64,000 nt of DNA from a bacterium (GTDB lineage Bacteria; Campylobacterota; Campylobacteria; Campylobacterales; Sulfurimonadaceae): the NCBI GenBank assembly GCA_018825665.1, contig JAHJEG010000005.1, forward strand, positions 1-64,000, written 5' to 3'. The notes below the pieces were generated by a model. The model was not told where the DNA came from, did no database searches, and worked only from the letters and a program-made list of their open reading frames with translations. Position 1 is the first letter of the stretch, and each line of letters opens with the position of its first letter. Below are positions 4,702 through 56,276 of this stretch, piece after piece. The translations under genes were made by a program, and so were the position numbers.

Positions 4702-5568
4702 ATGTATAAAAATAAAATGTATAATCTTTACAGACATATCAAGTTTTTTATCGGTACCTTTATTGACAAAGAGCTGACCCTTTATGCGGCAAGTCTGAGT
4801 TTTTATACCATCTTTACTATTATCCCGCTGCTTTTGATTATGCTCACTCTTTTGACATCGCTTCCCTCTTTTTCCGAGTACTACGAAAAGATTCAGGAGT
4901 TCATTTTCTCCAATCTTATGCCCGTAAACTCTGAGGTGGTGATGCTGCAGATCAACGGTTTTTTGCAGAACTCTTCGGAAATGGGCACGATGAGCTTTGT
5001 AATGGTGATCGTCTCCTCCCTCTTGTTTTTTCAAAACTTCGAATATATCGCAAACAAGATTTTTCATGTCAAAAAAAGGGGACTCTGGGAATCCGTCACG
5101 ACATTTTGGACGCTCTTAACCCTTACTCCTATCGCCTTGGGGGTGTCTTTTTATATTACGGGATATGTTGCTCTCTTGATGGCAGGCAGTGACCTGACAT
5201 CGGGTATAAATATCCTTCCCTATATACCTTATGCGATAATATGGGGACTCTTTTTTATTATATTTCAAATCAGTGCAAATACCAAGGTTTATGCAAAAGC
5301 ATCCGCAATCAGCTCATTTATAATCTCCATAGTATTTAGTATCTCTAAAAATGCTTTTATCTATTATGTGTTTTACAATAAAACATATATGACAATGTAC
5401 GGCTCTTTTGCCATCGTGCTATTTTTGTTTTTGTGGATTTATGTATCGTGGATTATTTTTATATACGGTCTGAAACTATGCTACATTATAAACCGCGTAT
5501 ATGAAAAGAGAGCTGCTATAAAAAAGCAAAAGCGCGAGAAAGGGGCTCTTCCAAATCTCTTTGAGTGA
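4702..5568 (+). CDS. YihY/BrkB-family inner-membrane protein
   Basis: About 288 residues with several membrane segments and a basic C-terminal tail (KRAAIKKQKREKG). It belongs to the YihY/virulence factor BrkB family (formerly mis-called RNase BN); its molecular function is unknown. The start is taken at ATG 4702 because AGAAGG lies five bases upstream; a GTG two codons earlier (4696) is less well placed. Its last 93 bases overlap the convergent comEC gene, so its charged tail is antisense to the hydrophobic end of ComEC. Confidence 0.85.
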   Translation: MYKNKMYNLYRHIKFFIGTFIDKELTLYAASLSFYTIFTIIPLLLIMLTLLTSLPSFSEYYEKIQEFIFSNLMPVNSEVVMLQINGFLQNSSEMGTMSFVMVIVSSLLFFQNFEYIANKIFHVKKRGLWESVTTFWTLLTLTPIALGVSFYITGYVALLMAGSDLTSGINILPYIPYAIIWGLFFIIFQISANTKVYAKASAISSFIISIVFSISKNAFIYYVFYNKTYMTMYGSFAIVLFLFLWIYVSWIIFIYGLKLCYIINRVYEKRAAIKKQKREKGALPNLFE

Positions 5569-6774
5569 GACGGAAAATATTTGGGGGATTGCAAGAAAGG
5601 AGAGCGCGATATGTACAAAAAGCCATATCTGCTGAAGCCGTACAAAACCGCTAAACTCTGCAAAGGATAGAAACATCTCAAGAAGGGTGTCAAAAGAATC
5701 CCCGAAACCTGCAAGATGCAAAAAAATACTCAGAGGATAAAAGAGGCTAAAAAGAGTTGTCCAAACTATTGAGAGCGGATGGTACAGACTAAAGCCCCCG
5801 AAGATGGACAAAGAAAAAGGGAGCATTAAAAGATAGACCCAAAACGGCATCAGGACAAACTGCCAGACTTTGTTCAAATCCTTAAAATACATAAGAAATA
5901 AAAAGATATAGAACACTCCGCCGGCCGAGAGCCAAAATCCAAGTGAAAAGACAAGCCTCGGGAAAAAAGACAAAAGCAGGACAACTGTCAAAAAAAGTGT
6001 CTGCATGGATACGATTTTTATCCCCCTCTCATAAAGAAAAAATCCTATAAGCAGCATAGCAAATGCACGTAAAAGCGAGGGCGGAGAATCCAAAAAGAGC
6101 AGATAGCAAAGCAAGACAAAAGAGATGAGCATAAAGGAATCCAAAGTATAGCTTCTGTAGGGAAAGTATCTGTCTTGAAAGAATTTATAGGGGACTCTCA
6201 GCAGAAAAAAAAGAACACCGCTTAAAACGCCCAGATGAAATCCGCTGATTGCCAAGAGATGAGAAACCCCCAGTGCTGAAAAAGCAGCTTGGAGGTGTGT
6301 ATGCAGAGGCTGTGCGGTATAAAGAGCCTGATAGATATTCGCTATATCCTCATTGGCGTGGCTTGAGGCAATATGATTGTTTAGTCTTTGTTTGAGTGTT
6401 TCATCTGTTTGGATCCCCAACACTTTTGTATAGGCATAAAAACCGTTGAGATACTCATAAAAACTTATCTTTGCGGCCCAGATCTCCAGCTTGAGTCTTT
6501 TATCTTTTACCTGCTGAAAGTTTTCTTTTGCAGAGGTGAAAAACGAGAAACCTTCTTCGCTTTTGAGTTTCAATACCTGATATGTTTTTTCATCTTTTGT
6601 TTTTGTGTATTGACGCAGGACCGTAGCCGTGAGGAGATTTGAATCAAATCGTGTCAAGTTTTTGTAGTTGTTAAACTCTATGAGCAGGGAGTAGCTTAGA
6701 ACAATTCCACATGCCAGGATGAAAAAGAAAAAGTCTCTTTTTTTTGTAAAAAGCGAGACTCTTTCTTTGAGCAT
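5476..6774 (-). CDS. comEC: Competence DNA channel protein ComEC (short form)
   Basis: A 432-residue polytopic membrane protein of the ComEC/Rec2 family, which carries single-stranded DNA across the inner membrane during natural transformation. The Competence domain signature HLLAISGFHLGVL lies near residues 172-184, followed by multiple membrane helices. It lacks the C-terminal metallo-beta-lactamase domain found in Bacillus ComEC; as I recall, H. pylori ComEC is similarly short, so this is not a truncation. It follows dnaB directly on the same strand, the order recalled for HP1362-HP1361. It contains one copy of the TTCCACATGCC motif (6705-6715) and implies that the organism can take up DNA. 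Confidence 0.9.
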   Translation of the reverse strand: MLKERVSLFTKKRDFFFFILACGIVLSYSLLIEFNNYKNLTRFDSNLLTATVLRQYTKTKDEKTYQVLKLKSEEGFSFFTSAKENFQQVKDKRLKLEIWAAKISFYEYLNGFYAYTKVLGIQTDETLKQRLNNHIASSHANEDIANIYQALYTAQPLHTHLQAAFSALGVSHLLAISGFHLGVLSGVLFFLLRVPYKFFQDRYFPYRSYTLDSFMLISFVLLCYLLFLDSPPSLLRAFAMLLIGFFLYERGIKIVSMQTLFLTVVLLLSFFPRLVFSLGFWLSAGGVFYIFLFLMYFKDLNKVWQFVLMPFWVYLLMLPFSLSIFGGFSLYHPLSIVWTTLFSLFYPLSIFLHLAGFGDSFDTLLEMFLSFAEFSGFVRLQQIWLFVHIALSFLAIPQIFSVSLKEIWKSPFLALLLFYSSSLFIYAVYNVA

Positions 6775-9255
6775 CTAGAGCGCGGGCATGGATACCATAT
6801 CATTTCCCGTATCCATAGAGGCTGAACGTGTATCGACATTTTCAAAGACCGTCTCATAGGCAGGTGCATGTTTTGGAGCATCGACAAAACGGGTAAGCTT
6901 TTTCTGAAAAACAAGTTTTACATGACCTGTAGGGCCGTTTCTTTGCTTGCCTATAATAATCTCTGCGTCTTCTTCTTCTTTTTCTATGTAGCTTGAGACA
7001 AACTCTTTGCCCTCGGCTTTGGCGGCTTTTTCACGCTCTTTTTCCTCTTTATAAAGATAAACATCGTCTCTGTAAACAAAAAGGATAATGTCGGCATCCT
7101 GCTCAATAGAACCAGACTCACGGATATCGCTTAGCATCGGACGTTTATCGTTTCTGCTCTCTAGTCCGCGGTTGAGCTGAGAGAGTGCGACTATAGGCAT
7201 ATTGAGCTCACGTGCAAGCATCTTAAGTCCGCGTGACATCTCCGAAACCTGCAGGTGTCTGTCCTGATTACCCACACCGCTCATAATCTGAAGGTAGTCG
7301 ATAACGGCTATCTCAATCTCCGGATGCTGGTTTTTGAGCTTTCTTAGTTTGGAGCGGAGCTGATTTATATTCACGCTTCCTGCATCGTCCACAAAGAGTT
7401 TGGCCGTATTCATCTTGTCAATCGCATTATTGAGGTTGGACCATTGGTCATCGTTCATATCGCCGACACGAAGCTTTTGAAGAGGTATGGATGTTTGTAT
7501 GCTCAGCATCCTGAGCATCAACTGTTCAGCCGGCATTTCCAGAGAAAAGAATGCGACACCTTTGCCCTGTGTTATAAGATTGTTGACGGTATTCAAAATA
7601 AAAGAGGTGTTGTGTGTAACAGTCATATCTTCAAGTAAAAACAGATGATTGCCGTCTATTGTAAAGCCATAATAATCATCGACCTTGTCATACTCAACTT
7701 TGATACCGGTATGTTTTATATCTCTTGGAGCTTTTAATTTTCTGGCTTTTTTTCTTTTGATTTTTGTAGGAATAGAATCTAAATCACCAACGATTTTTAG
7801 CCTATATACATCACATTCGTAGTTGATTTTCTTTATTTTTGCTTTTTTTACTTTAAGTGACACTCCAAAGCCTAAAGAATCCGCTAAAAATTTAATTTGC
7901 TTTGTAAGCTTCTCATCTTTTTGCACTATCTCAAACACATTAAACTTTTCATCATAGTAGCCATCACTGTCAAGCAGTCCTGCTAAAAGTTGGAGTCTGT
8001 TTCGGCGAGAGTTTTGTATATAAGAGTGCGGGATGTGTTTGTTGTCTAAAACCCCAAGTTTTCTCATTCTGGTTTGAAGAGAGTTGTCATCTTTGTAATA
8101 ACCGCCTCTTTGTCCGCTAGTGATGCTGTGCATAGGACATTTATCTTCATTTTTAGACTTTGTTACTTGAAGATTTAGCTCTTTTGCATAAGAGTTTAAA
8201 TAATCAACCACTTCTATATCCTGTGATGCTATGGAGATATTTGAACAAGTACCGTCACCTAGCCAAATACCAAGAAAATAAGGGTCGATTTCGAGATGTT
8301 GCTCTAAAAAATCTATACCGACTTTATAGCCTTTGTAGTTTGAGTGAAATTTGTCAGATTTTTTATTGTACTCTTTAACTGATATATTTAGTACATCTCC
8401 ATGCTTATGTTTGTCCTCGTTTCGTGAGCGTTTTAGTGAGAGTATATGTGATTCATTAACACGGTAATCAATCCCTTTGTTTTGGCGTACCCAATACATC
8501 TTTTCTCGTCCGCGAGCCAGTGAGAGAACATTGCGGGGTGTTGAATCATCACCCATAAGTTGGTCGCCAACCTCTACATCTTCAACATTTTTCATGGTTC
8601 CGTCAAACATAACTACTTTTGTGCCGCGACCTAAACATTTCCCCATCGCAGGCCTAGCCGCGATAATCACCAGGTCACCTTTTCCAAAACCCGTCGTCAT
8701 CTTGTTGAGTTCGTGAAAACCGGTATCGACTCCGACAAGTACGCTGTTTCCGCGTGCTTTCATCTCTTTGATGTATTCCATGGTGTCAAAGGTCATGGTT
8801 GGAGAATCTTTGAAATCGCTTGTCTGGTTATTCTGCGTAATCTCGTAGAGCTTCTTTTCCACAATATCGATGACATCGGCACTTGGCAGTTCCTCTTCGA
8901 CCGTGACTCTTTTTATCTCTGTCGTGAGGGTTAAGAGATGGCGTTTGAGCGATTTGTCTTTTATCTCGTTGACATAGGCTTTTGTGTTTGAGATAGGATT
9001 GGCGGAGAGGATCTCGAGCATGATCTGCTCATCAAACTTCTTCATCTTAAGAAGTTCTTTTTTTATGAACTCTTCATCAATAGGCTCATCTTTTTGCAAA
9101 AGTGTAAGCATAGAGGCAAAAATATCCTGATGCGCAGGCAGATAAAAATCATCTTTTTTCAGAGTGCTGCTCAGTTCGTCAAACTGTCCGGGTTCGAATA
9201 CGATTGAGCTTAGGATGCTTCTCTCAAAGGCCAGATTATATAGATTATCCTGCAC
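6775..9255 (-). CDS. dnaB: Replicative DNA helicase DnaB interrupted by an intein
   Basis: An 826-residue precursor: N-extein residues 1-206, intein 207-549, C-extein 550-826, giving a 483-residue mature helicase. The N-terminal domain (FERSILSSIVF) and RecA-like motor domain are complete. The intein splits Walker A between AARPAMGK and TSF, so ATP binding requires splicing. Later motifs are intact: FFSLEMP, AVIDYLQIM (Walker B) and RESGSIEQDAD, the last being another known intein site that is empty here. The GTG start overlaps the ispG stop by one base. comEC follows immediately. Confidence 0.95.
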   Translation of the reverse strand: MQDNLYNLAFERSILSSIVFEPGQFDELSSTLKKDDFYLPAHQDIFASMLTLLQKDEPIDEEFIKKELLKMKKFDEQIMLEILSANPISNTKAYVNEIKDKSLKRHLLTLTTEIKRVTVEEELPSADVIDIVEKKLYEITQNNQTSDFKDSPTMTFDTMEYIKEMKARGNSVLVGVDTGFHELNKMTTGFGKGDLVIIAARPAMGKCLGRGTKVVMFDGTMKNVEDVEVGDQLMGDDSTPRNVLSLARGREKMYWVRQNKGIDYRVNESHILSLKRSRNEDKHKHGDVLNISVKEYNKKSDKFHSNYKGYKVGIDFLEQHLEIDPYFLGIWLGDGTCSNISIASQDIEVVDYLNSYAKELNLQVTKSKNEDKCPMHSITSGQRGGYYKDDNSLQTRMRKLGVLDNKHIPHSYIQNSRRNRLQLLAGLLDSDGYYDEKFNVFEIVQKDEKLTKQIKFLADSLGFGVSLKVKKAKIKKINYECDVYRLKIVGDLDSIPTKIKRKKARKLKAPRDIKHTGIKVEYDKVDDYYGFTIDGNHLFLLEDMTVTHNTSFILNTVNNLITQGKGVAFFSLEMPAEQLMLRMLSIQTSIPLQKLRVGDMNDDQWSNLNNAIDKMNTAKLFVDDAGSVNINQLRSKLRKLKNQHPEIEIAVIDYLQIMSGVGNQDRHLQVSEMSRGLKMLARELNMPIVALSQLNRGLESRNDKRPMLSDIRESGSIEQDADIILFVYRDDVYLYKEEKEREKAAKAEGKEFVSSYIEKEEEDAEIIIGKQRNGPTGHVKLVFQKKLTRFVDAPKHAPAYETVFENVDTRSASMDTGNDMVSMPAL
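7609..8637 (-). mobile_element. DnaB P-loop intein with LAGLIDADG homing endonuclease domain
   Basis: A 343-residue protein-splicing element in frame within dnaB. It begins with Cys1 (CLGRGTKVVMFDG) and ends with TVTHN, followed by extein Thr +1. The block B-like motif is NESHILSL. Two DOD endonuclease motifs are visible: FLGIWLGDG (intein residues about 121-129) and LLAGLLDSDGYYD (about 217-229), each with an acidic residue, so the endonuclease may be active. The region lacks the dispersed CCACATGCC motif. The insertion point, directly after the P-loop Lys, corresponds to the P-loop dnaB intein site known from mycobacteria. Confidence 0.95.
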
Positions 9256-10316
9256 TATTTGCTCTCTTTTGACATTTTTTCAACTTCGCTAACAAACCTG
9301 TCTACAAGTTCACTCTCATTCAGGTTGGCGACAACTTCGCCTTTAACCATCACAAGACCTTTGCCTTTTCCGTAGGCTATGGCAACATCGGCATGCGCGG
9401 CTTCTCCAATGGCATTGACCACACACCCCATTACAGAGACGTTCAAAGGAGTCTTTATATGTGCTGTGCGTTTTTCTATCTCGCTCACTGCACTTACCAA
9501 ATCTGCTTCGATTCTTCCGCAGGTAGGACAGGAGATGATGTTGAGTCCCTCGGGCATAGCTCCGCTGTCTTTTAAAATGGCGCGGGCTACGTTTATCTCT
9601 TCTTCAAGTTCGCCCGTAATAGATACGCGCATGGTATCGCCGATACCATCAAGCAAAAGTGCGCCAAGACCTATAGAGCTTTTTACGGTCGCATGAAAGA
9701 GTGTTCCGGCTTCAGTAACTCCCAGATGAAAAGGGTAGTCGTTTTTTGGACGAAGCATTCTGTAGGCCGCAACTGTCCTTTGGACGTCAGAGGCTTTGAG
9801 AGATATCTTTATATCACTGAATCCCAGGTCTTCGAGATATTTTATATTATACTCGGCAGAAGCTACCATCCCCTCTGCGGTTTGGCCGTATTTGTCTAAG
9901 AACGGTTTTTCAAGACTTCCGGCATTTACACCGATTCTAATGGGAATATTACGCGCATGACAGGCCTTTACAACCTCTGCCACTTTCTCTTTTGAACCGA
10001 TGTTGCCCGGATTGATACGGATACAATCCACAACTTCAGCAGCTATGAGGGCCAGCTTGTGATTGAAATGGATATCTGCAACCAGAGGCAGGGCTATCTG
10101 TTCTTTTATCGATTTGAGCGCAAGTGCGTCTTGCATATCGGGAACGGCAACGCGAACGATGTCGCAACCGGCAAAATGAAGTCTGTTTATCTGTGCGACC
10201 GTCTCTGCAACGTCCGCTGTCTGGGAGTAGGTCATAGACTGCGTGCTTATAGGAGCATCACCGCCGATGGCAACATTTCCGACATATATTTTTTTAGTAG
10301 GGATTCTTTTTATCAT
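9255..10316 (-). CDS. ispG: 4-hydroxy-3-methylbut-2-enyl diphosphate synthase IspG
   Basis: A 353-residue 4Fe-4S enzyme of the MEP isoprenoid pathway, converting MEcPP to HMBPP. Signatures include [30 protein letters not shown] and FHLGVTEAG. Iron-sulphur cysteines are in SCPTCGR and SVMGC. It is the bacterial short form with TIM barrel and reductase-like domain. No Shine-Dalgarno precedes the ATG; instead a -10-like TAAAAT lies seven bases upstream, suggesting a leaderless message. Its stop overlaps the dnaB start. Confidence 0.96.
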
Positions 10317-10323: not shown

Positions 10324-10329
10324 ATTTTA
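10324..10329 (-). promoter_or_regulatory. -10 element for probable leaderless ispG mRNA
   Basis: On the minus strand TAAAAT is followed by seven bases and then the ispG ATG (10316), so transcription would begin at or next to the start codon. No purine-rich ribosome site is present between them. Confidence 0.5.
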
Positions 10330-10384
10330 TCTTTTTTGGGATAAAAATGTGCTTTATAGATTTTTTACTCCAAGAAAGATAAGC

Positions 10385-10423
10385 TTTATTTCCACATGCC
10401 GCGCTTTGGCATGTGGAAATAAA
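10385..10423. repeat. Perfect inverted pair of the TTCCACATGCC motif
   Basis: The left arm (10385-10400) and right arm (10408-10423) are exact reverse complements over 16 bases around a 7-base loop. Both arms contain TTCCACATGCC. The element lies just beyond the 3' end of the TonB receptor gene and upstream of ispG. The stem is flanked by A runs rather than a T tract on either transcript, so it is not a canonical intrinsic terminator, though it could still slow polymerase. Confidence 0.9.
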
Positions 10424-10436: not shown

Positions 10437-12404
10437 TTAGAATTTAAAATCCAGGTTTGTATATACATATCTTCCGGGTTCATTCAGAAGCATTGTGTCC
10501 GTACCTGCACTTAGGAGGATTAAATCCACATACGTGTTGGATTGCGCATAGGTCTCGTCTAAAAGATTATTTACGCCAAGGGTAAAGAAAATATTTTTGT
10601 TTACAGCGTGTTTTACTTTTGCATTGATGATTCCCCATGCTCCAAGCTCCTGCTCGCCGTTGTCCGCATCATAGTCGCTCCATTTGCTAGAGAGCAGAGT
10701 CTCAACTGTTGCGATACTCTCATTTTTGTACTCATAGTTAAGAGCCAAATTTCCTCTTAGCGGAGCCATATCTGCGAGGTCTTTATCTGTCTGACCTGCA
10801 AGCGCCTCATCTTTTTGCCCTTTTTTATACGAAGCACCCATATCAAGCGTGATATCATCCGTAGCATATACCGAAGAGCTCAGCTCTGCACCGTAAACTT
10901 TTGCATCGATATTTTGAAAAGTGGAACCTTTTTGCAAATAGATATAATCTTTTAATACGGAGTAAAATGCTTTGATCTTAAACTTCATAGAATCGTTGTT
11001 AAGCTCATATCCCAAGTCCACTTCACGGTTTGTCGTCTGCTCAAGGTTTTCATTTGCCGTAGGAGCCAAATACAACTCTCTGGCATCAGGAACACGTGAA
11101 GCCTGGCCTACGCCTAAAAAGATTTTATTCTCTTTATTGAGGTTATAGGATGTCATCAGGTTTGCGTTTAGGGCATTGTAATCGTTTGATTTGTATGTGA
11201 GAGTAGAAGTGTTGTCGGGGTTCACATGTGTCGCATCATATCTGGAACCAATCTCAACACTAAGGTCTCCAAAAGATTTTTCAAGTTTTGCAAAGAGCGC
11301 TCTGTTGTCCGTAGTTGTGTGTGTCAGCATCAAAGAAGAAGGTCCATCTATCCCTGAGAGCACGTCTGTTGCGAATTTTTCACCCTCCCACGTTCTTCTG
11401 CTTCCATCCAGACCTACTAAAAGTTTGTAAGAGTTTAAATCAAATTTGTTCTTTAGTTTAACTCCCTGCATCGTCGTCTGGAGCTGTGCTGTCATATATG
11501 TTGTCGCACCCGACATCCTGAATTTTGTATCCATAGGATGGTCAACGTCAGAGTAGTAGTATTGCAGGTTTATGTTCTTGTACTCATCGCTGATATCTTT
11601 TATATCATAGGCAATGCTGTAAATATTTGAATAGTCGTAGGCAGCATCCATTTTTGAGTTTGGATATAAGACATCATCACTTTTGTTTTTTGTGACGCTG
11701 AGCTGAAGCTCCTGCTCATCGGTTACATTCACATACATTTTTGCCATAACGCTTTTTTTCTTGTACGCCTGCATCTCTTCATACTGCGGCTGGTATTGTG
11801 CCATTCCCGATAGAGGATTGTTTGCAACCTGTTCGGCCAGAGTATCGCCGTTACCGTCTTTGTACTGGCCGCTTGCTTCACTCGAACCGCTTATCAAGAC
11901 TCTTATGGTATCGTTACCGCCGCTGAGAGTAGCCCCGATTTTTGTATATCTCCAGCTTCCTAAGCCGAAGTTTATCTCACCGTGTACATCTTTTTTAGGC
12001 TTCTTTGTCGTTATTTTAAGCCCGCCGCTCATTGTTCCAAAAGTTTCCACATCATAAGGACCTTCGATAACTTTTATCTCATCGATCTGATTTGCGAGTA
12101 TATGCGAAACAGGAGGATCCATTCTGTTTGGACATGCTCCGCATACTTTAGTGCCGTCAACTTCTACAGAGATATTATCTCTTTTTTGTCCGCGGATATA
12201 AATATCGTTTGCTATGCCGCTTCGGCGGTTCATGTCTATACTCGGCACGCTTTTGCTGAGTGCGTCCGAAAGGTCGGCAGATACCTGTGCGTTTTGGCTT
12301 ACTTCTTTGAGTACGGTTGATTCCACGCTGATTGTTGAGAGTTCAACTTCGTTTGCGTAGAGACTTGAGAGTGCTATAAGAGAGAGTGGGATGATTTTTT
12401 TCAT
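10437..12404 (-). CDS. TonB-dependent outer-membrane receptor, OprC/NosA-like (copper)
   Basis: A 655-residue TonB-dependent receptor with signal peptide (residues 1-17), plug domain and beta barrel ending in the aromatic YTNLDFKF. The plug contains C91-PNR-M95 within GACPNRMDPP, and the barrel has H289-P-M291. Together these reproduce the CxxxM and HxM motifs that bind copper in Pseudomonas OprC and resemble NosA. Copper uptake, perhaps to supply copper enzymes such as nitrous oxide reductase, is inferred. It is a single gene followed by the inverted motif pair at 10385-10423. No tonB/exbBD is nearby. Confidence 0.85.
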   Translation of the reverse strand: MKKIIPLSLIALSSLYANEVELSTISVESTVLKEVSQNAQVSADLSDALSKSVPSIDMNRRSGIANDIYIRGQKRDNISVEVDGTKVCGACPNRMDPPVSHILANQIDEIKVIEGPYDVETFGTMSGGLKITTKKPKKDVHGEINFGLGSWRYTKIGATLSGGNDTIRVLISGSSEASGQYKDGNGDTLAEQVANNPLSGMAQYQPQYEEMQAYKKKSVMAKMYVNVTDEQELQLSVTKNKSDDVLYPNSKMDAAYDYSNIYSIAYDIKDISDEYKNINLQYYYSDVDHPMDTKFRMSGATTYMTAQLQTTMQGVKLKNKFDLNSYKLLVGLDGSRRTWEGEKFATDVLSGIDGPSSLMLTHTTTDNRALFAKLEKSFGDLSVEIGSRYDATHVNPDNTSTLTYKSNDYNALNANLMTSYNLNKENKIFLGVGQASRVPDARELYLAPTANENLEQTTNREVDLGYELNNDSMKFKIKAFYSVLKDYIYLQKGSTFQNIDAKVYGAELSSSVYATDDITLDMGASYKKGQKDEALAGQTDKDLADMAPLRGNLALNYEYKNESIATVETLLSSKWSDYDADNGEQELGAWGIINAKVKHAVNKNIFFTLGVNNLLDETYAQSNTYVDLILLSAGTDTMLLNEPGRYVYTNLDFKF

Positions 12405-17016: not shown

Positions 17017-19117
17017 ATCCGTTTAGGAAGTTTGGAATTTCATCACCGGGCATGGGTCTGGCATAGAAAAAGCCCTGTATGATATGGCATCCGTTTTGGG
17101 TGAGGAACTCCATTTGCTCCTGTTTTTCAACGCCTTCGGCTATTATTTTTAAATTTAGGCTTGTTCCCAGAGCGATGATGGCTTTTGTTATAGCTGCATC
17201 ATCGTCATCCTCGGGAATATCCCTTACAAAAGACTGGTCTATTTTTAGTTTGTCAAGCGGAAGTTTTTTAAGATACGTCAAAGATGAATAACCGGTTCCA
17301 AAGTCGTCTATAGCTATCTCAATACCGTAACTGCTGATTTTATTCAATTTCTCTATAGAAGCTTGCGGGTTGTTCATAACCTGGCTTTCAGTCACTTCCA
17401 GCTCCAGCCATTCAGGTTTAAATCCAAGTTGATTCATCGTCTTTAGCATCTCATAGACAAAAGTATCCGAATTGAGTTGTTTCATGGCCAGGTTCAAAGA
17501 AAGGATACCGGGATTGAGCCCCTCTTTATACCATTGTACAAATTGGGACATAGATTTTTGCATCACTATTTTGTCTATGTCTATAATAAATCCGTTCTCT
17601 TCGGCTAAGGGGATGAACTTTCCTGGAAGCACTAAGCCGATTTGGGGGTGCATCCATCTCACAAGCGCCTCAAAGCCTATGATAGTGTTATCGATACTGT
17701 TGATTTGAGGCTGATAATAGACAATAAACTGCTCTTCTTTTATCGCGATCTTCAGACTGCTCTCCATCACAACTTTTTCAAATGCGAGGGCCGTCATATC
17801 TGCTGAGTAAAACTGAAAGTTGTCCCTTCCTTCATCTTTTGCCTTATACATTGCCGCATCTGCAAACTTCATCAAGTCATCTTCGGTCTGTGCATTTTTC
17901 GGAAAGAGACTGATACCCACACTCGCAGATATAAAGAGTGTATGCTCATGCGTCTCAATCGGCTCTTTTATTGTATCTATGATAATCTGGGCTACCCTCG
18001 AGGCTATCTGTATATCTTGTATATCTTTTAAGATTATGGCAAATTCATCACCGCCGAGTCTTGCCAGTGTATTGTTGATTTTAAGAGAACTGTTGATTCT
18101 ATTGGCGATTTCTATGATTATCTCATCTCCAATATGGTGGCCGATAGAATCATTTATTTTTTTAAACTGGTCTAAATCAACAATCAGCAGGGCAAACTGC
18201 TTCTGCTCTTTTTTAGATAGAGAGATACTTTGGGAAAGCATGTTTTTAAAAAGAGTTCTGTTTGGGAGGTTTGTCAATTTATCATAATTCGCCTGATGGT
18301 TTAGCTTGATATTTTGTTCTTTGAGCAGCTGTTCGGTCTCTTTTTTATCTGATATATCTACATCAAACACCACATAGGCGCTCTCTGTATTATAGGTAAT
18401 ACTGTGTATGTAGGATTGCACATGGTACATGGAGCCGTCTTTTCTTCTGTGGATGGTCTGGTTTGCAACACCGTGATTTTTTTCATGAATTATTTTTAAG
18501 AGGTTGACCTTTTCTATTGTAAGGGTAGGATTTATATCAAAAACATTCAATTGCAACAGCTCTTCTCTGGAATACCCCAAAGCGTTGCAGGCACCGTCAT
18601 TGACATAAAGATATTCAAAGGTGTCCTCTTTAAGGATGTATATTTCGCTTGATGAGTGGTCAATGATATTTGACAACTCCTGAGAATGGTTTTTTAAAGA
18701 GACATAGTCCGTAATATCCTGGGATGTTCCTATAAGTTTGGCGGGAATATTATTCTCATCAAAGATAACCTGACCGTTGATTACAAGGTTTGCTATATCT
18801 CCGTTTGCTCTTTTGATGCGACACTCAAAAGTGGTGACTTCGCCTGAGGTCATGGCCTGCTGCAGGGTTTTGTGCGCATTTACCAAATCTTCGGGCATCA
18901 CACGTGAAAAGAACAGAGCCAAATCCGGTTCGACTTCGTTCTTGTCAAAACCGTAAATTTTGTAACTCTGGTCCGACCAGATACTTTTTTTTGTTTTGAG
19001 GTCAATTTCCCAGCTGCCAAGATGGGATATGGATTCTACTCTTTTAAGACTGTCCTCTCTTGCCTTGAGTTTTGACAGAGCAGTCTTCAGATCATCTTTT
19101 AAAATGTCGATAGGCAT
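17003..19117 (-). CDS. PAS-PAS-GGDEF-EAL cyclic-di-GMP enzyme
   Basis: A 704-residue cytoplasmic signalling protein without membrane helices. Order: coiled N-terminus, PAS/PAC 1 (about 30-140), PAS/PAC 2 (about 150-265), GGDEF (about 275-435) with intact RLGGDEF, and EAL (about 450-695) with intact FEALVRW, LEVTES, IDDFGTGYSSL and KIDQSF. Both catalytic signatures are present, so it could make or degrade c-di-GMP depending on the PAS input. The start ATG itself lies within a motif copy (19113-19123) and is preceded by AGGAG. The 3' end overlaps the CZB gene. Confidence 0.93.
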   Translation of the reverse strand: MPIDILKDDLKTALSKLKAREDSLKRVESISHLGSWEIDLKTKKSIWSDQSYKIYGFDKNEVEPDLALFFSRVMPEDLVNAHKTLQQAMTSGEVTTFECRIKRANGDIANLVINGQVIFDENNIPAKLIGTSQDITDYVSLKNHSQELSNIIDHSSSEIYILKEDTFEYLYVNDGACNALGYSREELLQLNVFDINPTLTIEKVNLLKIIHEKNHGVANQTIHRRKDGSMYHVQSYIHSITYNTESAYVVFDVDISDKKETEQLLKEQNIKLNHQANYDKLTNLPNRTLFKNMLSQSISLSKKEQKQFALLIVDLDQFKKINDSIGHHIGDEIIIEIANRINSSLKINNTLARLGGDEFAIILKDIQDIQIASRVAQIIIDTIKEPIETHEHTLFISASVGISLFPKNAQTEDDLMKFADAAMYKAKDEGRDNFQFYSADMTALAFEKVVMESSLKIAIKEEQFIVYYQPQINSIDNTIIGFEALVRWMHPQIGLVLPGKFIPLAEENGFIIDIDKIVMQKSMSQFVQWYKEGLNPGILSLNLAMKQLNSDTFVYEMLKTMNQLGFKPEWLELEVTESQVMNNPQASIEKLNKISSYGIEIAIDDFGTGYSSLTYLKKLPLDKLKIDQSFVRDIPEDDDDAAITKAIIALGTSLNLKIIAEGVEKQEQMEFLTQNGCHIIQGFFYARPMPGDEIPNFLNGSKKI

Positions 19118-19137
19118 GTGGAAAAGCTCCTCTTAAT

Positions 19138-19701
19138 TTAGATCAGATGACCCATCTCATCTTTTTTTACGTCCAGATAATCTTTATTATGTCTATTGGA
19201 TTCCATAATAATCGGCACTCTCTCAATAATTTCAATATCGCTTATGGAATTTATTTTATCAGGATTGTTCGTCAGAAGCCTGATTTTATGAACATTAAAG
19301 TGGTGCAGTATAAAAGTAACCATCTCATAGGTCCTCTCATCCGCACGAAACCCCAATTGATGATTAGCCTCTATGGTATTATAGCCTTTATCCTGAAGAG
19401 CGTATGCATTGATTTTATTTAACAGACCTATATTTCTGCCCTCTTGTCTGAGGTAGATTACCATTCCGTTTGTTTTGGAGGCTAAATCTAACGCATATTC
19501 CAACTGGTCACGGCAGTCACATTTAAGGCTGCCGATTGCATCGCCGGTTAAACATTCGGAATGAACCCTGACTATAGGCGTATCAGACATATTATCTGTA
19601 TAAATAACCAGATGTTCTTTTTCGCCCTCTTTGAACGCTTTTACTTTAAAATTACCAAATCTTGAAGGAAGATTGGCAACATTTGAAATTTTTATATTCA
19701 T
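19138..19701 (-). CDS. ribA: GTP cyclohydrolase II
   Basis: A 187-residue RibA opening GTP in the first step of riboflavin synthesis. Zinc cysteines are in CLTGDAIGSLKCDC; RQEGRNIGLLNKI and ANHQLGFRADER are active-site motifs. Single-domain form with no RibB fusion. Divergent from hemB; a TGCTATAAT promoter lies about 45 bases upstream. The riboflavin gene ribH is elsewhere in this window. Confidence 0.94.
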   Translation of the reverse strand: MNIKISNVANLPSRFGNFKVKAFKEGEKEHLVIYTDNMSDTPIVRVHSECLTGDAIGSLKCDCRDQLEYALDLASKTNGMVIYLRQEGRNIGLLNKINAYALQDKGYNTIEANHQLGFRADERTYEMVTFILHHFNVHKIRLLTNNPDKINSISDIEIIERVPIIMESNRHNKDYLDVKKDEMGHLI

Positions 19702-19744
19702 TTATTTAAACTTTAAAACGGTAAAATATTTTTATTAAAAAATT

Positions 19745-19750
19745 ATTATA
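19745..19750 (-). promoter_or_regulatory. Extended -10 promoter for ribA
   Basis: On the minus strand TGCTATAAT occurs 44 bases upstream of the ribA ATG in the ribA/hemB divergent region. Confidence 0.5.
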
Positions 19751-19767
19751 GCAAAAAAAGGTTTATC

Positions 19768-20742
19768 ATGTTTCGTAAATTTCGTAGAACTCGTTTAAAT
19801 AAAAATCTCCGTTCTCTGGTTCGTGAAACAAGAGTTGATGTAGAAGATTTTATATATCCTCTTTTTATCCGCAGCGGCGAAGGGATAAAAACAGAAGTTG
19901 CCTCGATGCCCGGAGTGTATCAAATGAGCATTGATGAGGTCTTAAAAGAGTGCGATGAGTTAAAATCACTGGGAATTTACTCTATTATACTTTTTGGGAT
20001 TCCTGACGTAAAGGACTCTGTGGGTTCGGATGCTCTGTGCGAACACGGGATCATAGCTTCTTCTATCAGAACAATCAAAGAGGCGCACCCTGATATGTTT
20101 GTAGTAACGGATTTATGTTTTTGCGAATATACAGACCATGGACATTGCGGGATAATAGACCATAAGCACGATACCGTAGACAATGACTCTACCTTGAAGA
20201 TGTCTGCACAGCAGGCAGTTGTCCATGCAAAAGCCGGAGCGGATATGATAGCTCCCTCAGGAATGATGGACGGAATCATCCTCACACTCAGAGAAGCGCT
20301 TGATAGTGCGGGATATTCCAATGTGCCTGTGATGAGTTATTCAACCAAGTTTGCAAGCGGTTATTACGGGCCTTTTCGTGATGTTGCGGAATCTACTCCA
20401 AGTTTTGGAGACCGCGCCTCGTATCAGATGGATCCGGCAAACCGCCGCGAGGCACTTGCAGAGAGTATTGAGGATGAGGCTCAGGGAGCAGATATCCTAA
20501 TGGTCAAACCGGCTCTTGCATATCTTGATATCGTCAGAGAGATAAAAGATAACACCTCTCTGCCTCTTGCCGTTTACAATGTGAGCGGCGAATACGCAAT
20601 GCTCAAACTTGCCCAGAAGCATGATCTGATAGATTATGAAAGAGTCGTCATGGAAACAATGGTCAGCTTCAAAAGAGCAGGTGCTGATATTATTATCTCT
20701 TATCACGCAAAAGAAGTTGCAAGAATGCTCAGGAGCAGGTAG
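19768..20742 (+). CDS. hemB: Delta-aminolevulinic acid dehydratase (porphobilinogen synthase)
   Basis: A 324-residue enzyme joining two 5-aminolevulinates to porphobilinogen in haem synthesis. The zinc-type active site is seen as [14 protein letters not shown]. Schiff-base lysines lie in [15 protein letters not shown] and [12 protein letters not shown]. Preceded by AAAAGG before ATG 19768. Haem demand fits the multihaem cytochromes and hemJ in the window. Confidence 0.96.
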
Positions 20743-20804
20743 TTTTTGTTAAATTAAAGAAAACTATATTAGAATATGTAATTATTAAATTTTAGGAAAA
20801 ACAA

Positions 20805-21731
20805 TTGAGACACTTTTTAACACTTAAAGATTTCACAAAAGAGGAAATCTTAGAGATCATAGATATTGGTCTTGCAATAAAAAAAGATTTAAAGGCCGGC
20901 ATCTATAAAAGGGAACTGTCAAATCAGACCTTGGCTATGATATTTGAAAAAAGTTCAACCAGAACAAGGGTCAGTTTTGAGACCGGGATGTTTCAGCTTG
21001 GCGGGCATGCTTTGTTCTTGTCCAACAGGGATATACATTTGGGTAGGGGTGAGCCTGTAAAAGATACGGCAAGAGTGATATCAAGTATGTGTGATATGGT
21101 GATGATTCGAACCTTTGAGCACTCTATGGTAGAGGAGTTTTCTTCTTTTTCAAAAGTTCCCGTTATTAACGGACTGACCGATTCTTTTCATCCTGTGCAG
21201 CTTTTGGCCGATTACATGACTATGGTTGAGTACGGCGTAAGCGAGAACGCGGTTGTTGCGTATGTGGGTGATGGAAACAATATGACACACTCCTGGATGA
21301 TGCTTGCGGCTAAGATCGGCTTTGATCTTAGGATTGCAACACCAAAGGGCTATGAGGTTGATGGCACAATCTTGGAGGAGGCTCTAAAGATTGCAAAAAT
21401 AAGCGGAGCGGCTATTACTGTTACAAATGACCCCAAAGAAGCAGTGAAGGGTGCAAGTATCGTGACAACGGACACTTGGGCTTCCATGGGACAAGAGGAA
21501 GAAAAAGAGGAAAGAGTAAAAGCCTTCAAGGGTTTTATGGTTGATGATTTGATGATGTGCTTAGCCCAAAAAGGAGCTAAGTTTTTACATTGTTTACCTG
21601 CATATCGTGGACAAGAGGTAAGCGAATCGGTCTTGGAAGGGCATGCTGACATCGTTTTTGATGAAGCAGAAAACAGACTTCACGCACAAAAAGGTCTAAT
21701 GGTATGGTTAGATAAACAAAGAGGAGAATAG
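20805..21731 (+). CDS. argF: Ornithine carbamoyltransferase
   Basis: A 308-residue OTCase making citrulline from ornithine and carbamoyl phosphate. Signatures: [13 protein letters not shown] (carbamoyl phosphate loop), [11 protein letters not shown], and the ornithine-site HCLPAYRG. The start is TTG at 20805 with AGGA upstream, beginning the conserved [10 protein letters not shown]. The pentahaem cytochrome gene begins at the very next base after the stop. Confidence 0.95.
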
Positions 21732-22922
21732 ATGAAAATTATTTTAAGTATTTTGCTGGCATTTACTGCGCTTTTTGCCGCCAAAGCAGTTGAGGTTGGT
21801 GAAAGATTTGAAGATTCACAAAAATGTAAGGCTTGTCATTTACACATAGTAAAAGACTGGGAAAAATCGTGGCATGCAAAATCTCACTATGAGAGTGATG
21901 AGTATTTTAAAGCTACAATAGACTATGTAAGCAGAAAAACAAGAAAAAGTCTCAACAGTGTCAAGGTACAATGTGCCACATGCCATAATCCGAGAATTTC
22001 TGTAACAAGCACCGGAATCGATTATGAGATAATGGCTGTTATGGAACTCGATAAAGACTCCAAAGTAAATCAGGCTTTAAAAAGTGATGCTATAGATGAG
22101 GGCATCAATTGTGTGGTGTGTCATAATATTGATAAAATTCATTCGGATAAAGATGAAAGTTTTAGAGGGATAAACCGCGTAGAATGGACGAAGTCGGGAA
22201 CTATGACAGGTCCTTATGATGACGCGATGTCGCCTTACCATAAAGTGGAACATCGTGATTTTATGGATAATAATTCAGACCAGTTATGTTTTGTTTGTCA
22301 CGCCAATGACAGGGCAGTAAAAGGCCTGGTATTTACAGATATGCAGAGTGAGTACAAAAAAAGTGACAAAGGGTGTGTAGACTGCCATATGGGGCCAAAA
22401 ACCATGGGTGTTGCCGCTACTTTGAAACTTGATAACGGAAAAGCAAAAAAACGGGAGATTAGAAGTCATGGATTTGCCGGGGGGCATGTTGCAAGCATGT
22501 GGGAAGATGCCCTAAATATTAATGCACGCCAAAAAGGAAACGATATCGTTGTTTCCATATCCAATCCTCAACCCCATAATATCCCTAGCGGTTTTGGCTC
22601 ACGAGAGTTGCTCTTGGAGATGGTCTTTAAAAAAGGTCATCAGGATATAGGAAACAAATCTATCTCTCTTACGCGTACATATACGAGCAAAAGGGATAAA
22701 CCGACTATACCTCATTTGGCTGTTAAAGCTTCGGAAGACCTGAGTATTCCCGCAAACGGCAAAAAAATATTAAAAGTTTCAAATGAAGCAGGAGCTACAA
22801 GCGTCGAGATTAAACTGTACTACCGTTTAGTAAATGATGAGGTACGCTCCATTTTAAAACTTAAAGACCCTATCTGGTCTGATAAAAGTTTTATAGCATC
22901 AAAAACTTTAAAACTCAAATAA
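21732..22922 (+). CDS. Periplasmic pentahaem c-type cytochrome
   Basis: A 396-residue exported cytochrome with signal peptide (residues 1-16) and five CxxCH motifs: CKACH, CATCH, CVVCH, CFVCH and CVDCH, all in the first two thirds. The C-terminal 150 residues carry no haem and look beta-rich. The arrangement resembles cytochrome c-554-type multihaem proteins; electron partners are unknown. It abuts argF with no gap, an unusual operon partner. The stop precedes a bidirectional terminator. One CCACATGCC (21976-21984) here is explained by the haem codons of CATCH. Confidence 0.88.
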   Translation: MKIILSILLAFTALFAAKAVEVGERFEDSQKCKACHLHIVKDWEKSWHAKSHYESDEYFKATIDYVSRKTRKSLNSVKVQCATCHNPRISVTSTGIDYEIMAVMELDKDSKVNQALKSDAIDEGINCVVCHNIDKIHSDKDESFRGINRVEWTKSGTMTGPYDDAMSPYHKVEHRDFMDNNSDQLCFVCHANDRAVKGLVFTDMQSEYKKSDKGCVDCHMGPKTMGVAATLKLDNGKAKKREIRSHGFAGGHVASMWEDALNINARQKGNDIVVSISNPQPHNIPSGFGSRELLLEMVFKKGHQDIGNKSISLTRTYTSKRDKPTIPHLAVKASEDLSIPANGKKILKVSNEAGATSVEIKLYYRLVNDEVRSILKLKDPIWSDKSFIASKTLKLK

Positions 22923-22928
22923 GATTTT

Positions 22929-22953
22929 AGGGGTGGCTTATATCCACCCTTTT
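22929..22953. terminator. Bidirectional terminator between cytochrome and NIT-like gene
   Basis: GGGTGG (22931-22936), a 7-base loop, CCACCC (22944-22949), then TTTT; on the other strand the hairpin is followed by CCTAAAA. The arm is also part of the last codons of the convergent NIT-like gene. Confidence 0.75.
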
Positions 22954-23789
22954 GAGTCCGCCAAAACTGCCTTGTTGTTTGAGTTGAATATATTGATAAG
23001 CATAGAGATGATATCTGTTCCCTGCGTGAAATAGTCATCTGCATTCAGGCTCGAACTGTCTTGTAAAACAGAGTTTTTGGTTACGTTGGTGTATTCAAGA
23101 ATAGATTTTTGTGCACTGATAAGATTCCTGTCAATACCGCTGTCATATTTGTCTTTGTTCTTGGCTAAGATAGTTCTCATATCTGTCTGCATCTTGGAAT
23201 CCAAATCTTCAATCTCACTCAGCATGGCTAAGATTGCAAATTTCTGATTATTCTTTATACTGCCTTTTGCAATAATCCCTGAGCCCATTCCTCTCATTCG
23301 TCCTATCTGCTCTGTCAGAGGCAAGATCACTTCCATCATAAGGGCAGAGGCTTCTTTGCCAAGAGGATTGAGATCCTGGGAGCCCTGCTTACTGATAGTC
23401 TGTGCAAGCATAAGAATCTGCTCAACCTGTTCTGTATAGCTATCGAATGCAACACTAGGTTCAAGTTTAAAAGCTTTGTTGTTGAGCTTAATAAGCGCTT
23501 GAGAGATGTTCGTAGCTCTATCCATCACAATCGGGTTGGATGCCAGAGGAAGTGACTCCATTACCCCTATGGCATTTTTCATATCTCTTTGATTCCCATG
23601 GATAAGGAGAAGAGCACTTTCGTTGCCGTTGAGGTAGCTATTTGTTAAGCCGCGAGTTTTCTGGGTTGCAACGACGAGATCTTTTAATGAGTTAATATAG
23701 GTAGAATTACTCATTTGATCATTATTGCTAAAAAGAGACTTCGCGTCTAAACTAAACAATAATACAGCTAATACGATAAAAATACGCAT
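22938..23789 (-). CDS. Exported protein with nitrate/nitrite-sensing (NIT)-like domain
   Basis: A 283-residue protein with signal peptide (MRIFIVLAVLLFSLDAKS) and an all-helical body. Segments such as TQKTRGLTNSYLNG and RGMGSGIIAKGS resemble the NIT domain found in nitrate/nitrite-responsive receptors, where an Arg-Gly pair begins a helix. No membrane anchor or output domain follows, so it would be a soluble periplasmic binding or sensing protein. A CRP/FNR-type box sits 60 bases upstream, fitting control by nitrogen oxides or oxygen. The domain call is tentative. Confidence 0.65.
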   Translation of the reverse strand: MRIFIVLAVLLFSLDAKSLFSNNDQMSNSTYINSLKDLVVATQKTRGLTNSYLNGNESALLLIHGNQRDMKNAIGVMESLPLASNPIVMDRATNISQALIKLNNKAFKLEPSVAFDSYTEQVEQILMLAQTISKQGSQDLNPLGKEASALMMEVILPLTEQIGRMRGMGSGIIAKGSIKNNQKFAILAMLSEIEDLDSKMQTDMRTILAKNKDKYDSGIDRNLISAQKSILEYTNVTKNSVLQDSSSLNADDYFTQGTDIISMLINIFNSNNKAVLADSKGWI

Positions 23790-23848
23790 TTCAATAACAC
23801 CTTTGAATTTATTTGAAAGCGATTTTAACTGATTTTGTGCAAGCTGTA

Positions 23849-23862
23849 TTGACTTATATCAA
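23849..23862. promoter_or_regulatory. CRP/FNR-family operator upstream of the NIT-like gene
   Basis: TTGACTTATATCAA is a near-perfect TTGAT-N4-ATCAA palindrome (one mismatch), centred about 66 bases upstream of the NIT-like start codon at 23789. Confidence 0.6.
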
Positions 23863-23885
23863 GATAAGGCATATTTTATAAGTAT

Positions 23886-24851
23886 TTAGTATCGAATTCC
23901 TGTTACGCTTCTGATTTTTTCTATCATCGGAAGTGCGGATTCTCTTGCCTTGTTTGCTCCAAGGTTTAAAATCTCTCTTACTTCGTTTTGATTCTTTTGA
24001 TAATATTCCCGTTTTTCTCTAAAGTCTCCAAAATATTCCCACATGACATCGGCAAGGTAGAGTTTAAAATGTCCATGACCCTCTCCGCCTCTTTTGTATC
24101 TGTTTTGAAGTTCCTCTAATGCATCATCGTCCAAAAACAATTTTGCGATATTATAGACATTACACGTCTCGTACTCTTTTGGATCCTCCATTGCAACATT
24201 TTGGGTGACAATTTTTTTGATTGTTTTGAGCTGCTGTTTTTCTTCGCCGAAAATATTGACGGTATTGCCGTAGCTCTTTGACATTTTTTGTCCGTCTGTC
24301 CCCGGAACCGTTGCAACATGCTCTTCAACTTTGAATTCCGGAAGTTTTAGAATATCACCATACTGATTATTAAATTTAATGGCGATATCTCTGGCGATTT
24401 CCACATGCTGAATCTGATCTTTTCCGACAGGGACGATATCGGGTGAAAAAAGCAGAATATCAGCTGCCATCAGCACCGGGTAAGAAAGTAGGGAATGGTT
24501 TGTGGCAAATCCGCGGGCAGTTTTATCCTTGTAGCTGTGCGCTCTCTCAAGAAGCCCCATAGGCGTAAAGGATGATAAGGTCCAATACAGCTCCAATACC
24601 TCTTTTACATCTGACTGCACCCAAAATGTAGACTTGTTTGGATCAATGCCAAGAGCCAAAAAATCTGTTGCAGCCTGCATAGTCAATTTAGATAATTTGT
24701 CACCCTCACTCAGACTGGTCATCGCATGATAGTTTGCTATAAAAGCAAAAGTTTCACTGTCTTTTTGAGCTTCTACCATCTGTTTTACAGAACCGAAGTA
24801 GTTTCCTATGTGTAAATCTCCCGATGGTTGAATGCCTGTGAGTACTCTCAT
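23886..24851 (-). CDS. trpS: Tryptophanyl-tRNA synthetase
   Basis: A 321-residue class I aminoacyl-tRNA synthetase. The HIGH-equivalent is in PSGDLHIGNYFG and the KMSKS motif in DGQKMSKSYGN. Full bacterial length. Single gene with its own start at ATG 24851; contains one near match to the dispersed motif (TTCCACATGC, 24399-24408). Confidence 0.96.
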   Translation of the reverse strand: MRVLTGIQPSGDLHIGNYFGSVKQMVEAQKDSETFAFIANYHAMTSLSEGDKLSKLTMQAATDFLALGIDPNKSTFWVQSDVKEVLELYWTLSSFTPMGLLERAHSYKDKTARGFATNHSLLSYPVLMAADILLFSPDIVPVGKDQIQHVEIARDIAIKFNNQYGDILKLPEFKVEEHVATVPGTDGQKMSKSYGNTVNIFGEEKQQLKTIKKIVTQNVAMEDPKEYETCNVYNIAKLFLDDDALEELQNRYKRGGEGHGHFKLYLADVMWEYFGDFREKREYYQKNQNEVREILNLGANKARESALPMIEKIRSVTGIRY

Positions 24852-24966
24852 ATAAATTTCCTAATTTTTTGTGACATTATAGCTAACCTAAATTACCATT
24901 TCAGCTTAATTGTGTTAGCATGACAAAATATAAAAGCGAGGGATCTCGCCCAAAAAAGGATTTATT

Positions 24967-25296
24967 ATGAATGTACAAATTCGTTCAAAAGATGTAACTG
25001 TTCACGCAGATACAAAAGCACACATTGAGAGTGCTGTTGAAGCATTTAAAAAATTTCAGTTGGATATAACTACGGTTAATGTAAATATTGAAACACAAAA
25101 AAAAGGGGTGTCAATAGAATTTGATATCCATATCGCACATGCGCAACCTGTTGTTATTAACCAGAGTGATGATGATTTGCATACGGCTATAGATTTAGCA
25201 ATAGACAGAGCCTCAAAAGCACTTCGTCGTTTACATGGAAAAGTAACGGAAAAACAAGCTACTTCTATAAAAGATCTTGAAACACTAGACGCTTAA
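24967..25296 (+). CDS. Short ribosome hibernation factor (HPF/RaiA type)
   Basis: A 109-residue S30AE-domain protein (MNVQIRSKDV, AIDLAIDRASKALRRLHGK) that binds the 30S decoding region in starved cells. It lacks the C-terminal dimerisation domain. A second, long HPF is encoded at 47142-47675, so this genome has both types. The 60-base leader carries a small hairpin (GCGAG, GGAT, CTCGC at 24936-24949) and AAAAAAGGA before the ATG. Confidence 0.9.
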   Translation: MNVQIRSKDVTVHADTKAHIESAVEAFKKFQLDITTVNVNIETQKKGVSIEFDIHIAHAQPVVINQSDDDLHTAIDLAIDRASKALRRLHGKVTEKQATSIKDLETLDA

Positions 25297-25298
25297 TC

Positions 25299-25323
25299 TT
25301 GTATGCCCTTTACGGGTGTACAA
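25299..25323 (+). terminator. Hairpin after short HPF gene
   Basis: TTGTATGCCC, loop TTTAC, GGGTGTACAA: a 10-pair stem with two G-U pairs just after the stop codon. There is no T tract, so termination strength is doubtful. Confidence 0.4.
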
Positions 25324-25357
25324 ATATCTCTTCAATCCCCCTTCTTAGGAAATATTT

Positions 25358-25957: not shown

Positions 25958-25970
25958 CGAGTCATACAAA

Positions 25971-26086
25971 GGAATTTGCAAAGGAATTTACTTCCTTTGC
26001 AGGGGAGAATATTTCTCTTGCCGATAGGCAAAGCTTTAGTGAGAGGAATTTGCAAAGGAATTTACTTCCTTTGAAAAGGAGAATAT
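25971..26086 (+). repeat. Tandemly duplicated hairpin leader of hemJ
   Basis: Two 42-base copies (25971-26012 and 26045-26086) with three mismatches, 74 bases apart. Each contains a perfect 8- or 9-pair hairpin (CAAAGGAA, TTTAC, TTCCTTTG) followed by GGAGAATAT. In the second copy AAAAGGAG is the hemJ ribosome site. The 3' hairpin arm TTCCTTT could pair either with the upstream AAAGGAA or with this Shine-Dalgarno. Confidence 0.75.
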
Positions 26087-26090
26087 AATA

Positions 26091-26537: not shown

Positions 26538-26551
26538 TACGGTCTATTTTT
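26525..26551 (+). terminator. Intrinsic terminator of hemJ
   Basis: TAGACCG (26525-26531), an 8-base loop, CGGTCTA (26540-26546), then TTTTT. The stop codons of both hemJ and the convergent der gene lie within it. Confidence 0.8.
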
Positions 26552-55847: not shown

Positions 55848-55884
55848 TATTTCCACATGCCGCACTCTTTGGCATGTGGAAATA
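55848..55884. repeat. Perfect inverted pair of the TTCCACATGCC motif at the end of fliW
   Basis: Arms 55848-55861 and 55871-55884 are exact 14-base reverse complements around a 9-base loop; both contain TTCCACATGCC. Located 11 bases beyond the fliW stop. The nearest T run on the fliW transcript comes several bases after the stem, so terminator function is weak. Confidence 0.9.
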
Positions 55885-55895: not shown

Positions 55896-56276
55896 TTATT
55901 TTTTCAAAAAAGCGGAAATTTTTTCAGCCACGCCGTATTTTGTGGATTCGGGAAGGATAATCTGAATAGCTTTTTTGTTATCGGTATTAAAGACAAGCGG
56001 TCCTATGAAGTTTACAATCGAATCTTCGATAGGGGTTTGAATTAGCACGATGTTTAAAACCAGCAGGTTTGAATCTTTGGCGGCGCCGATAGCATCTTCT
56101 ACGCTCTTTGTTACTTCAAAATCGTACTCTCTAAGGACAAAAGGATCTATAAGCGTAAAAGAGATATGTTCATCTTCTACAGCTTGCATTTTCATAAAAA
56201 TATCATCTATCTTTTCTAGTTTAACTTGCTTTATGCTTTCAAAGCCTAAAATTGGCGCACTTATATCAAATATCAT
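55896..56276 (-). CDS. fliW: Flagellar assembly factor FliW
   Basis: A 126-residue protein that binds flagellin and antagonises CsrA. Motifs: ISFTLIDPFVLREYDFEV and LNIVLIQTPIEDSIVNFIGPLVFN, the core of FliW. Divergent from bamD and lon, as I recall for HP1377-HP1379. Implies a flagellated, motile cell. Confidence 0.92.
   Translation of the reverse strand: MIFDISAPILGFESIKQVKLEKIDDIFMKMQAVEDEHISFTLIDPFVLREYDFEVTKSVEDAIGAAKDSNLLVLNIVLIQTPIEDSIVNFIGPLVFNTDNKKAIQIILPESTKYGVAEKISAFLKK

Follow-up and report, generated by a model that had tools for sequence, protein, structure and literature searches.

What does an inverted pair of a repeated word do at the end of a gene, where it can fold into a strong hairpin that lacks the T tract of a classical terminator? 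This question is raised by a site between a TonB-dependent receptor gene and ispG, in a window of 64,000 nt from a member of the Sulfurimonadaceae (contig JAHJEG010000005.1, positions 1 to 64,000 of the forward strand, assembly GCA_018825665.1; the genome is designated G000 here).

The hairpin between the TonB receptor gene and ispG

The first-pass annotation of the window had described this site as a perfect 16-base hairpin formed by two full motif copies, and the description proved correct: the arms (10385-10400 and 10408-10423) are complementary at 16/16 positions, lie 7 nt apart and each contain the 10-mer GGCATGTGGA (Table 1). The stem starts 13 nt 3' of the receptor stop codon, and ispG is the next gene downstream. 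When 71 nt around the site were folded as RNA, energies of -25.7 kcal/mol (- strand) and -27.6 kcal/mol (+ strand) were obtained, and on neither strand did any of 200 dinucleotide shuffles reach such stability. Scanning the window for Rfam families and tRNAs gave no matches.

Outside the stem lie AAGCG on the + strand and GCTTATCTTTC on the - strand. The latter flank is mildly T-rich farther out, with 5-6 T within 10 nt 3' of the stem on the coding strand, and no T run exceeds three, in agreement with the earlier remark that a terminator T tract is missing here. The A runs that had been said to flank the stem on both strands are in fact part of it, as AAATAAA is the end of the 3' arm of each strand. 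A loose terminator-consensus scan flagged the site as terminator-like; the same scan returned 22 sites in 20 kb where shuffles gave 16.9 (sd 4.1), which leaves it without discriminating power.

A -10-like TAAAAT was recognised by eye right before the start of ispG, and in 18 of 19 ispG upstream regions, this one included. We infer that it is a promoter element, in which case the TonB receptor gene and ispG probably belong to different transcription units with the hairpin between them. An imperfect inverted repeat (21 nt, 86%) at 10327-10382, between the motif hairpin and ispG, overlaps the -10-like element and forms a second stem in the - strand fold.

Table 1. Features of the window referred to in the text
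Feature	Position	Strand	Basis
ComEC-like competence protein, DNA import channel family	5476..6774	-	Pfam Competence, E 1.3e-26
ispG (GcpE), downstream gene	9255..10316	-	ORF; Pfam GcpE
TAAAAT, -10-like element right before ispG start	10324..10329	-	by eye
Hairpin of two inverted motif copies (perfect 16-bp stem, loop of 7 nt), without real T tract on either strand	10385..10423	both	
Motif copy GGCATGTGGA, left arm	10391..10400	-	
Motif copy GGCATGTGGA, right arm	10408..10417	+	
TonB-dependent receptor, hairpin at its 3' end	10437..12404	-	ORF; Pfam TonB_dep_Rec_b-barrel, Plug
Second head-to-head pair, 9-nt gap, 15 nt 3' of fliW stop	55852..55880	both	
fliW, followed by motif pair here and in G437	55896..56276	-	

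An abundant word of a few Sulfurimonas-type genomes

The word GGCATGTGGA has 721 exact copies in G000 (2.34 Mb), 345 and 376 on the two strands, 25 of them in the window; the reversed control has 0. In 1.136 Mb of G000 sequence it occurs 404 times vs 0.8 expected under an order-3 model, within an extended consensus of about YY[TC]GGCATGTGGA-A-W-T, that is, pyrimidines 5' of the core and A-W-T 3' of it. One-letter variants are scarce in the same sequence, except GGCATGTGCA (56 vs 1.2 expected), which is possibly a second dialect of the word; it is found at window positions 38697, 42477, 42804, 60053 and 60133, and makes gene-end hairpins of its own. Coding copies make up 297/404 and intergenic copies 107/404 in the G000 stretches analysed, where intergenic space is 6-7% of the sequence, and with respect to the host gene 136 copies are sense and 163 antisense. 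In the window, at a mean spacing of about 2.5 kb, the exact word is absent over two stretches of more than 8 kb (19113-31758 and 47098-55851). Three gaps free of the word were read by eye; signalling and sulfur-metabolism-like genes are among their contents.

When 77 genomes of the genus were counted, G000 included, five held 401-1302 copies (G000, G045, G056, G327 and G437), three held 31-71 (G035, G036 and G041) and the other 69 held 0-13. No genome above 11 copies was found outside the genus in an order sample of 398 genomes. In a named genome collection of 257 Gb the head-to-head pair occurs at at least 80 loci; among the 80 listed, 72 belong to records titled Sulfurimonas, Sulfuricurvum, Sulfurimonadaceae, Helicobacteraceae, Campylobacterales or 'bacterium', and the remaining 8 are scattered over other groups, about the chance level for 257 Gb. 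The viral collection gave 0 matches to this pair. The motif-rich genomes are compatible with one group in an IspG gene tree of 19 genomes, whose support is weak. In pieces of 3.7-20 kb from motif-poor relatives no other over-represented word stood out, although a rarer one could escape pieces so small.

The copies are well conserved. In G056, at 75% DNA identity, 26 of the 33 coding copies that can be aligned are unchanged, compared with 5.8% of same-frame control 10-mers, and so are 10/10 intergenic copies, the G056 stretches counted having been picked around pairs.

Copies far above chance, in both orientations and with inverted pairs at gene ends, are the marks of a DNA uptake sequence, and in its genomic profile GGCATGTGGA is of this kind, within the Campylobacterota; it may serve in uptake. 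PMC1852404 and PMC3630211 describe the DUS of Neisseriaceae as alike in several ways, being 10-mers with many hundreds of copies, on both strands, tolerated in genes and gathered as inverted pairs at gene ends. DUS are unlike GGCATGTGGA in word and phylum, and their pairs have T tails where GGCATGTGGA pairs have none. The USS pairs of Pasteurellaceae share an abundant core, an AT-leaning 3' flank and the use of both inverted orders; their word is AAGTGCGGT, whose preceding A run gives T tails, whereas GGCATGTGGA is preceded by pyrimidines. Compared by eye with GCCGTCTGAA, AAGTGCGGT and ACAAGCGGT, in their printed forms, GGCATGTGGA has no common core CTG or GCGG, and by sequence is neither DUS nor USS. 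Among the titles listed by our literature searches we saw no uptake word described for Sulfurimonas or for Campylobacterota, which does not prove absence.

Competence genes are present and, in the genomes searched, do not track the word. DprA was found in G000, which also has a ComEC-like gene in the window, and ComEC and DprA occur in 18/18 genomes searched, motif-rich or motif-poor alike; pilin-type genes occur in 17/17, and their count per genome does not split motif-rich from motif-poor. This lends some support to the view that the word is instead a site for a chromosome-organising or other DNA-binding protein or for a methylase, with the hairpins arising incidentally where palindrome-forming mutation (template switching) acts on free sites. 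We consider this very unlikely: a word with hundreds of near-exact occurrences in a handful of species and hardly any in their close relatives follows the known uptake-sequence pattern, as do the mostly genic, exactly conserved copies and the gene-end inverted pairs. A link to GC skew, as expected of Chi or KOPS, is also absent: a Chi/KOPS-type oriented motif was rejected, the orientation of GGCATGTGGA having a correlation of 0.003 with local GC skew (plus-strand share 0.45 at positive and 0.44 at negative skew), measured along contigs.

Other observations are the following. One pilin-type cluster resembles a type II secretion operon by eye. At window positions 49037-55727 (-), two pilin-type N-terminal methylation signals stand beside a 2003-aa ORF, with a weak, below-cut-off match to DUF7305. 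A DnaB helicase gene at 6775-9255 (-) carries an in-frame intein: its two DnaB halves enclose Hint and LAGLIDADG homing-endonuclease domains.

Inverted pairs are in excess and lie at gene ends

Pairs were taken as two GGCATGTGGA copies with a gap of 0-30 nt, and expectations were derived from uniform placement at the genome counts. The whole G000 genome contains 25 head-to-head and 15 tail-to-tail pairs against about 1.7 expected of each, so that 40 inverted pairs face 3.4, a roughly 12-fold excess, as compared with 7 same-strand pairs vs about 3.5 (2-fold). In the G000 stretches, random placement within coding and intergenic space likewise gave 3.4 inverted pairs, with a maximum of 9 in 500 trials, against the 40 observed. 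An excess over random spacing, on which the first-pass annotation had made its idea depend, is therefore real. G056 has 23 head-to-head pairs, two of which overlap, 25 tail-to-tail pairs and 18 same-strand pairs, the last count taking in tandem arrays; G045 has 10, 8 and 7, respectively, and head-to-head pairs number 47 in G437 and 18 in G327. The tandem arrays consist of three to five same-orientation copies in 18-bp steps (G056 C20:449078-449160 and C32:13358-13421; G045 C97:3466-3511).

Both inverted orders occur at similar frequency (head-to-head/tail-to-tail 25/15 in G000, 23/25 in G056 and 10/8 in G045), hence there is no preference for the order that would yield a T tail. Practically all DUS pairs, by contrast, are in the A/T-tail order, with 226 vs 5 pairs in N. 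meningitidis Z2491, while the USS pairs of H. influenzae number 50 and 25 in the two orders (PMC1852404). Table 5 of that paper has Neisseria, and to a lesser degree Pasteurellaceae, favouring the order that gives a T tail.

As to position, convergent genes flank 13 of the 40 G000 pairs, codirectional genes 21 and divergent genes 0; a further 5 are genic and 1 is at a contig end. In G000 and the G056 stretches taken together, 12/71 pairs are inside called genes, and 53 of the 59 others have at least one stop codon no more than 60 nt away, at a median distance of 11.5 nt; 23 of these 53 sit between two convergent ends. The genome-wide survey of inverted pairs that had been proposed thus confirms their gene-end position, and T tracts are missing from them as well. 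In the G000 stretches an exact inverted partner lies within 30 nt of 69 of the 107 intergenic copies vs 11 of the 297 coding ones; these stretches were selected to contain pairs, and the fair comparison is the whole-genome one. Single copies are mostly genic but only 5/40 pairs are, which ties pairing to gene 3' ends. One head-to-head pair with a 29-nt gap and a related spacer recurs in four genomes (G000 C54:45689-45737, G056 C32:25502, G327 C51:43445 and G437 C10:95178), and in G000 it falls within a called gene.

These positions bear on a reading in which the function of the pairs is DNA uptake: inverted copies would be favoured by a receptor that is dimeric or binds a dyad with higher affinity, and gene ends would simply be DNA that can change freely. 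The uptake-like behaviour of GGCATGTGGA and its crowding into the small intergenic space agree with such a role, which nevertheless appears quite unlikely to us. The space between divergent genes is free too and contains none of the 40 pairs, with single copies there at 7/404 in the G000 stretches; an origin of the hairpins as mutational by-products leaves the same absence unexplained. Moreover, head-to-head gaps spread widely over 0-29 nt with no favoured dyad geometry, and the 2-5 nt between tail-to-tail copies are as compatible with a tight hairpin loop as with a DNA dyad.

T-poor hairpins and the RNA 3' end

The pairs resemble intrinsic (Rho-independent) terminators in having a strong G+C-containing stem soon after a stop codon, often between convergent genes, and differ from them in lacking a U tract 3' of the stem. 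In the 5 nt 3' of the second core, read in gene direction, the mean number of T is 1.43 for head-to-head and 1.06 for tail-to-tail pairs in G000, and 1.07 and 0.82 in G056; Table 4 of PMC1852404 gives 3.05-3.18 T for the T tail of the matching regions in Neisseria. Since pyrimidines precede the core and A-W-T follows it, neither inverted order produces a T tract.

As a yardstick, the best hairpin 3' of each gene end was scored from simple ORF calls, and T was counted over the 9 nt that follow the outermost G-C pair. Strong hairpins were found at 116/363 ends in G000 (49 with the motif), 50/151 in G056 (33 with the motif), 37/211 in motif-poor relatives and 39/71 in E. coli (three 50-kb pieces). 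Six or more of these 9 nt are T behind 1/49 motif and 9/67 non-motif hairpins in G000, 5/37 in motif-poor relatives and 15/39 in E. coli. T behind the G000 motif hairpins is below background (mean 2.35 of 9 vs 3.01), and rank tests on T gave p = 5e-5 for motif vs non-motif hairpins in G000 and p = 0.34 for motif-poor relatives vs E. coli. Poor T tracts are thus widespread in the genus, which contrasts only modestly with E. coli, and those of the motif hairpins are poorer still. The missing T tract, which had been presented as a peculiarity of the motif, loses part of its distinctiveness, since gene-end hairpins that lack the motif are mostly T-poor too in the genus.

This result also speaks for what we regard as the main rival explanation, namely that uptake words have been recruited into ordinary intrinsic terminators, as they have in Neisseria and Pasteurellaceae, in a clade whose RNA polymerase tolerates poor U tracts so that a long stem alone releases the RNA. 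Stable stems at gene ends, as PMC1852404 reports for Neisseria, and the 5-6 T near the stem behind the TonB receptor gene point the same way. Motif hairpins with fewer T than the background and no U tract, in pairs that favour neither inverted order, argue against it, and we think it possible but rather unlikely.

The absence of a T tract in either order suggests that the hairpin is probably not a classical intrinsic terminator. According to PMC10319736, 3'-5' exonucleases typically process the transcripts that Rho has terminated, so a strong stem after the stop codon would define and protect their end. The explanation we put forward, with a confidence evenly poised between right and wrong, is that GGCATGTGGA is a clade-specific uptake-like word whose gene-end inverted pairs act as U-less 3'-end hairpins, stopping exonuclease trimming after factor-dependent termination. 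A strong RNA hairpin would result from two inverted copies 3' of a stop codon, and pairs of this kind would be made and kept at operon 3' ends. At 10385-10423 the hairpin would close the TonB-receptor transcript, and ispG would probably start anew behind it; Rho would terminate farther downstream, and trimming of the 3' end would halt at the stem, which would leave that end fixed and protected.

The first-pass annotation had proposed that motif pairing is selected for itself or creates a different RNA end. A different RNA end fits the excess of pairs, their location at gene ends, their T-poor flanks and complementarity extending beyond the motif, and a role of the hairpin in forming the RNA 3' end may be inferred from these features; selection of pairing for itself is less supported. 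The extended complementarity is clear in tail-to-tail pairs (1.44 within pairs vs 0.72 between; 5/2000 shuffles as high) and weak in head-to-head pairs (2.21 vs 1.90; 75/2000), the inner side of which showed no extra complementarity (683/2000). This last result counts against the 3'-end reading, as do the 12/71 pairs within called genes, which make no sense as mRNA ends.

REP/BIME-type repeats are palindrome-forming DNA 3' of genes with T-poor flanks, and have been proposed as blocks to 3' exonucleases. The GGCATGTGGA pairs are like them in being repeated, palindrome-forming, T-poor in their flanks and located at gene ends, and unlike them in that the word is not extragenic, three quarters of its copies being genic.

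If the uptake character of the word is genuine, it would be a third case of an uptake sequence, in another phylum, and its patchy distribution within one genus would open the origin of such systems to study; comparison of motif-rich species with their near-motif-free close relatives would then allow a search for the receptor. We give about equal credence to the truth and the falsity of the wider proposition, that self-marking uptake sequences arose independently a third time, beyond Neisseriaceae and Pasteurellaceae, in a small number of Sulfurimonas-type species of the Campylobacterota, and that their inverted pairs were turned into a U-less class of mRNA 3' ends. Gene-end pairs free of T tails pull apart two possibilities that are coupled in the known cases, retention of uptake-word pairs for T-tailed terminators and retention for the hairpin itself.

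Orthologous sites give a mixed picture. In motif-poor relatives, a hairpin score of at least 14 is reached at 1/8 ends orthologous to G000 pairs vs 16/68 other ends, so most pair sites are not older hairpin sites; the 1/8 is a further point against the 3'-end reading. In G056, 4/4 orthologous ends have a hairpin, 3 of them with the motif. The order TonB receptor-pair-ispG is common to G000 and G056, in favour of the 3'-end reading, and a pair before ispG is also found in G045 and G437; G327, though motif-rich, has none there, which again counts against the reading. The receptor gene directly precedes ispG in six motif-poor relatives, five of which (G292, G048, G021, G009 and G040) have another T-poor hairpin at the site by eye, with none visible in the sixth, G051. 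A general replacement of older terminators by pairs was considered and finds no support at the 8 orthologous ends, although it looks right by eye between the receptor gene and ispG. The arrangement of fliW followed by a pair is common to G000 and G437, and in G437 the gene downstream is ispG, unlike here; that the pair is kept despite a different downstream gene indicates that there the hairpin goes with the upstream gene.
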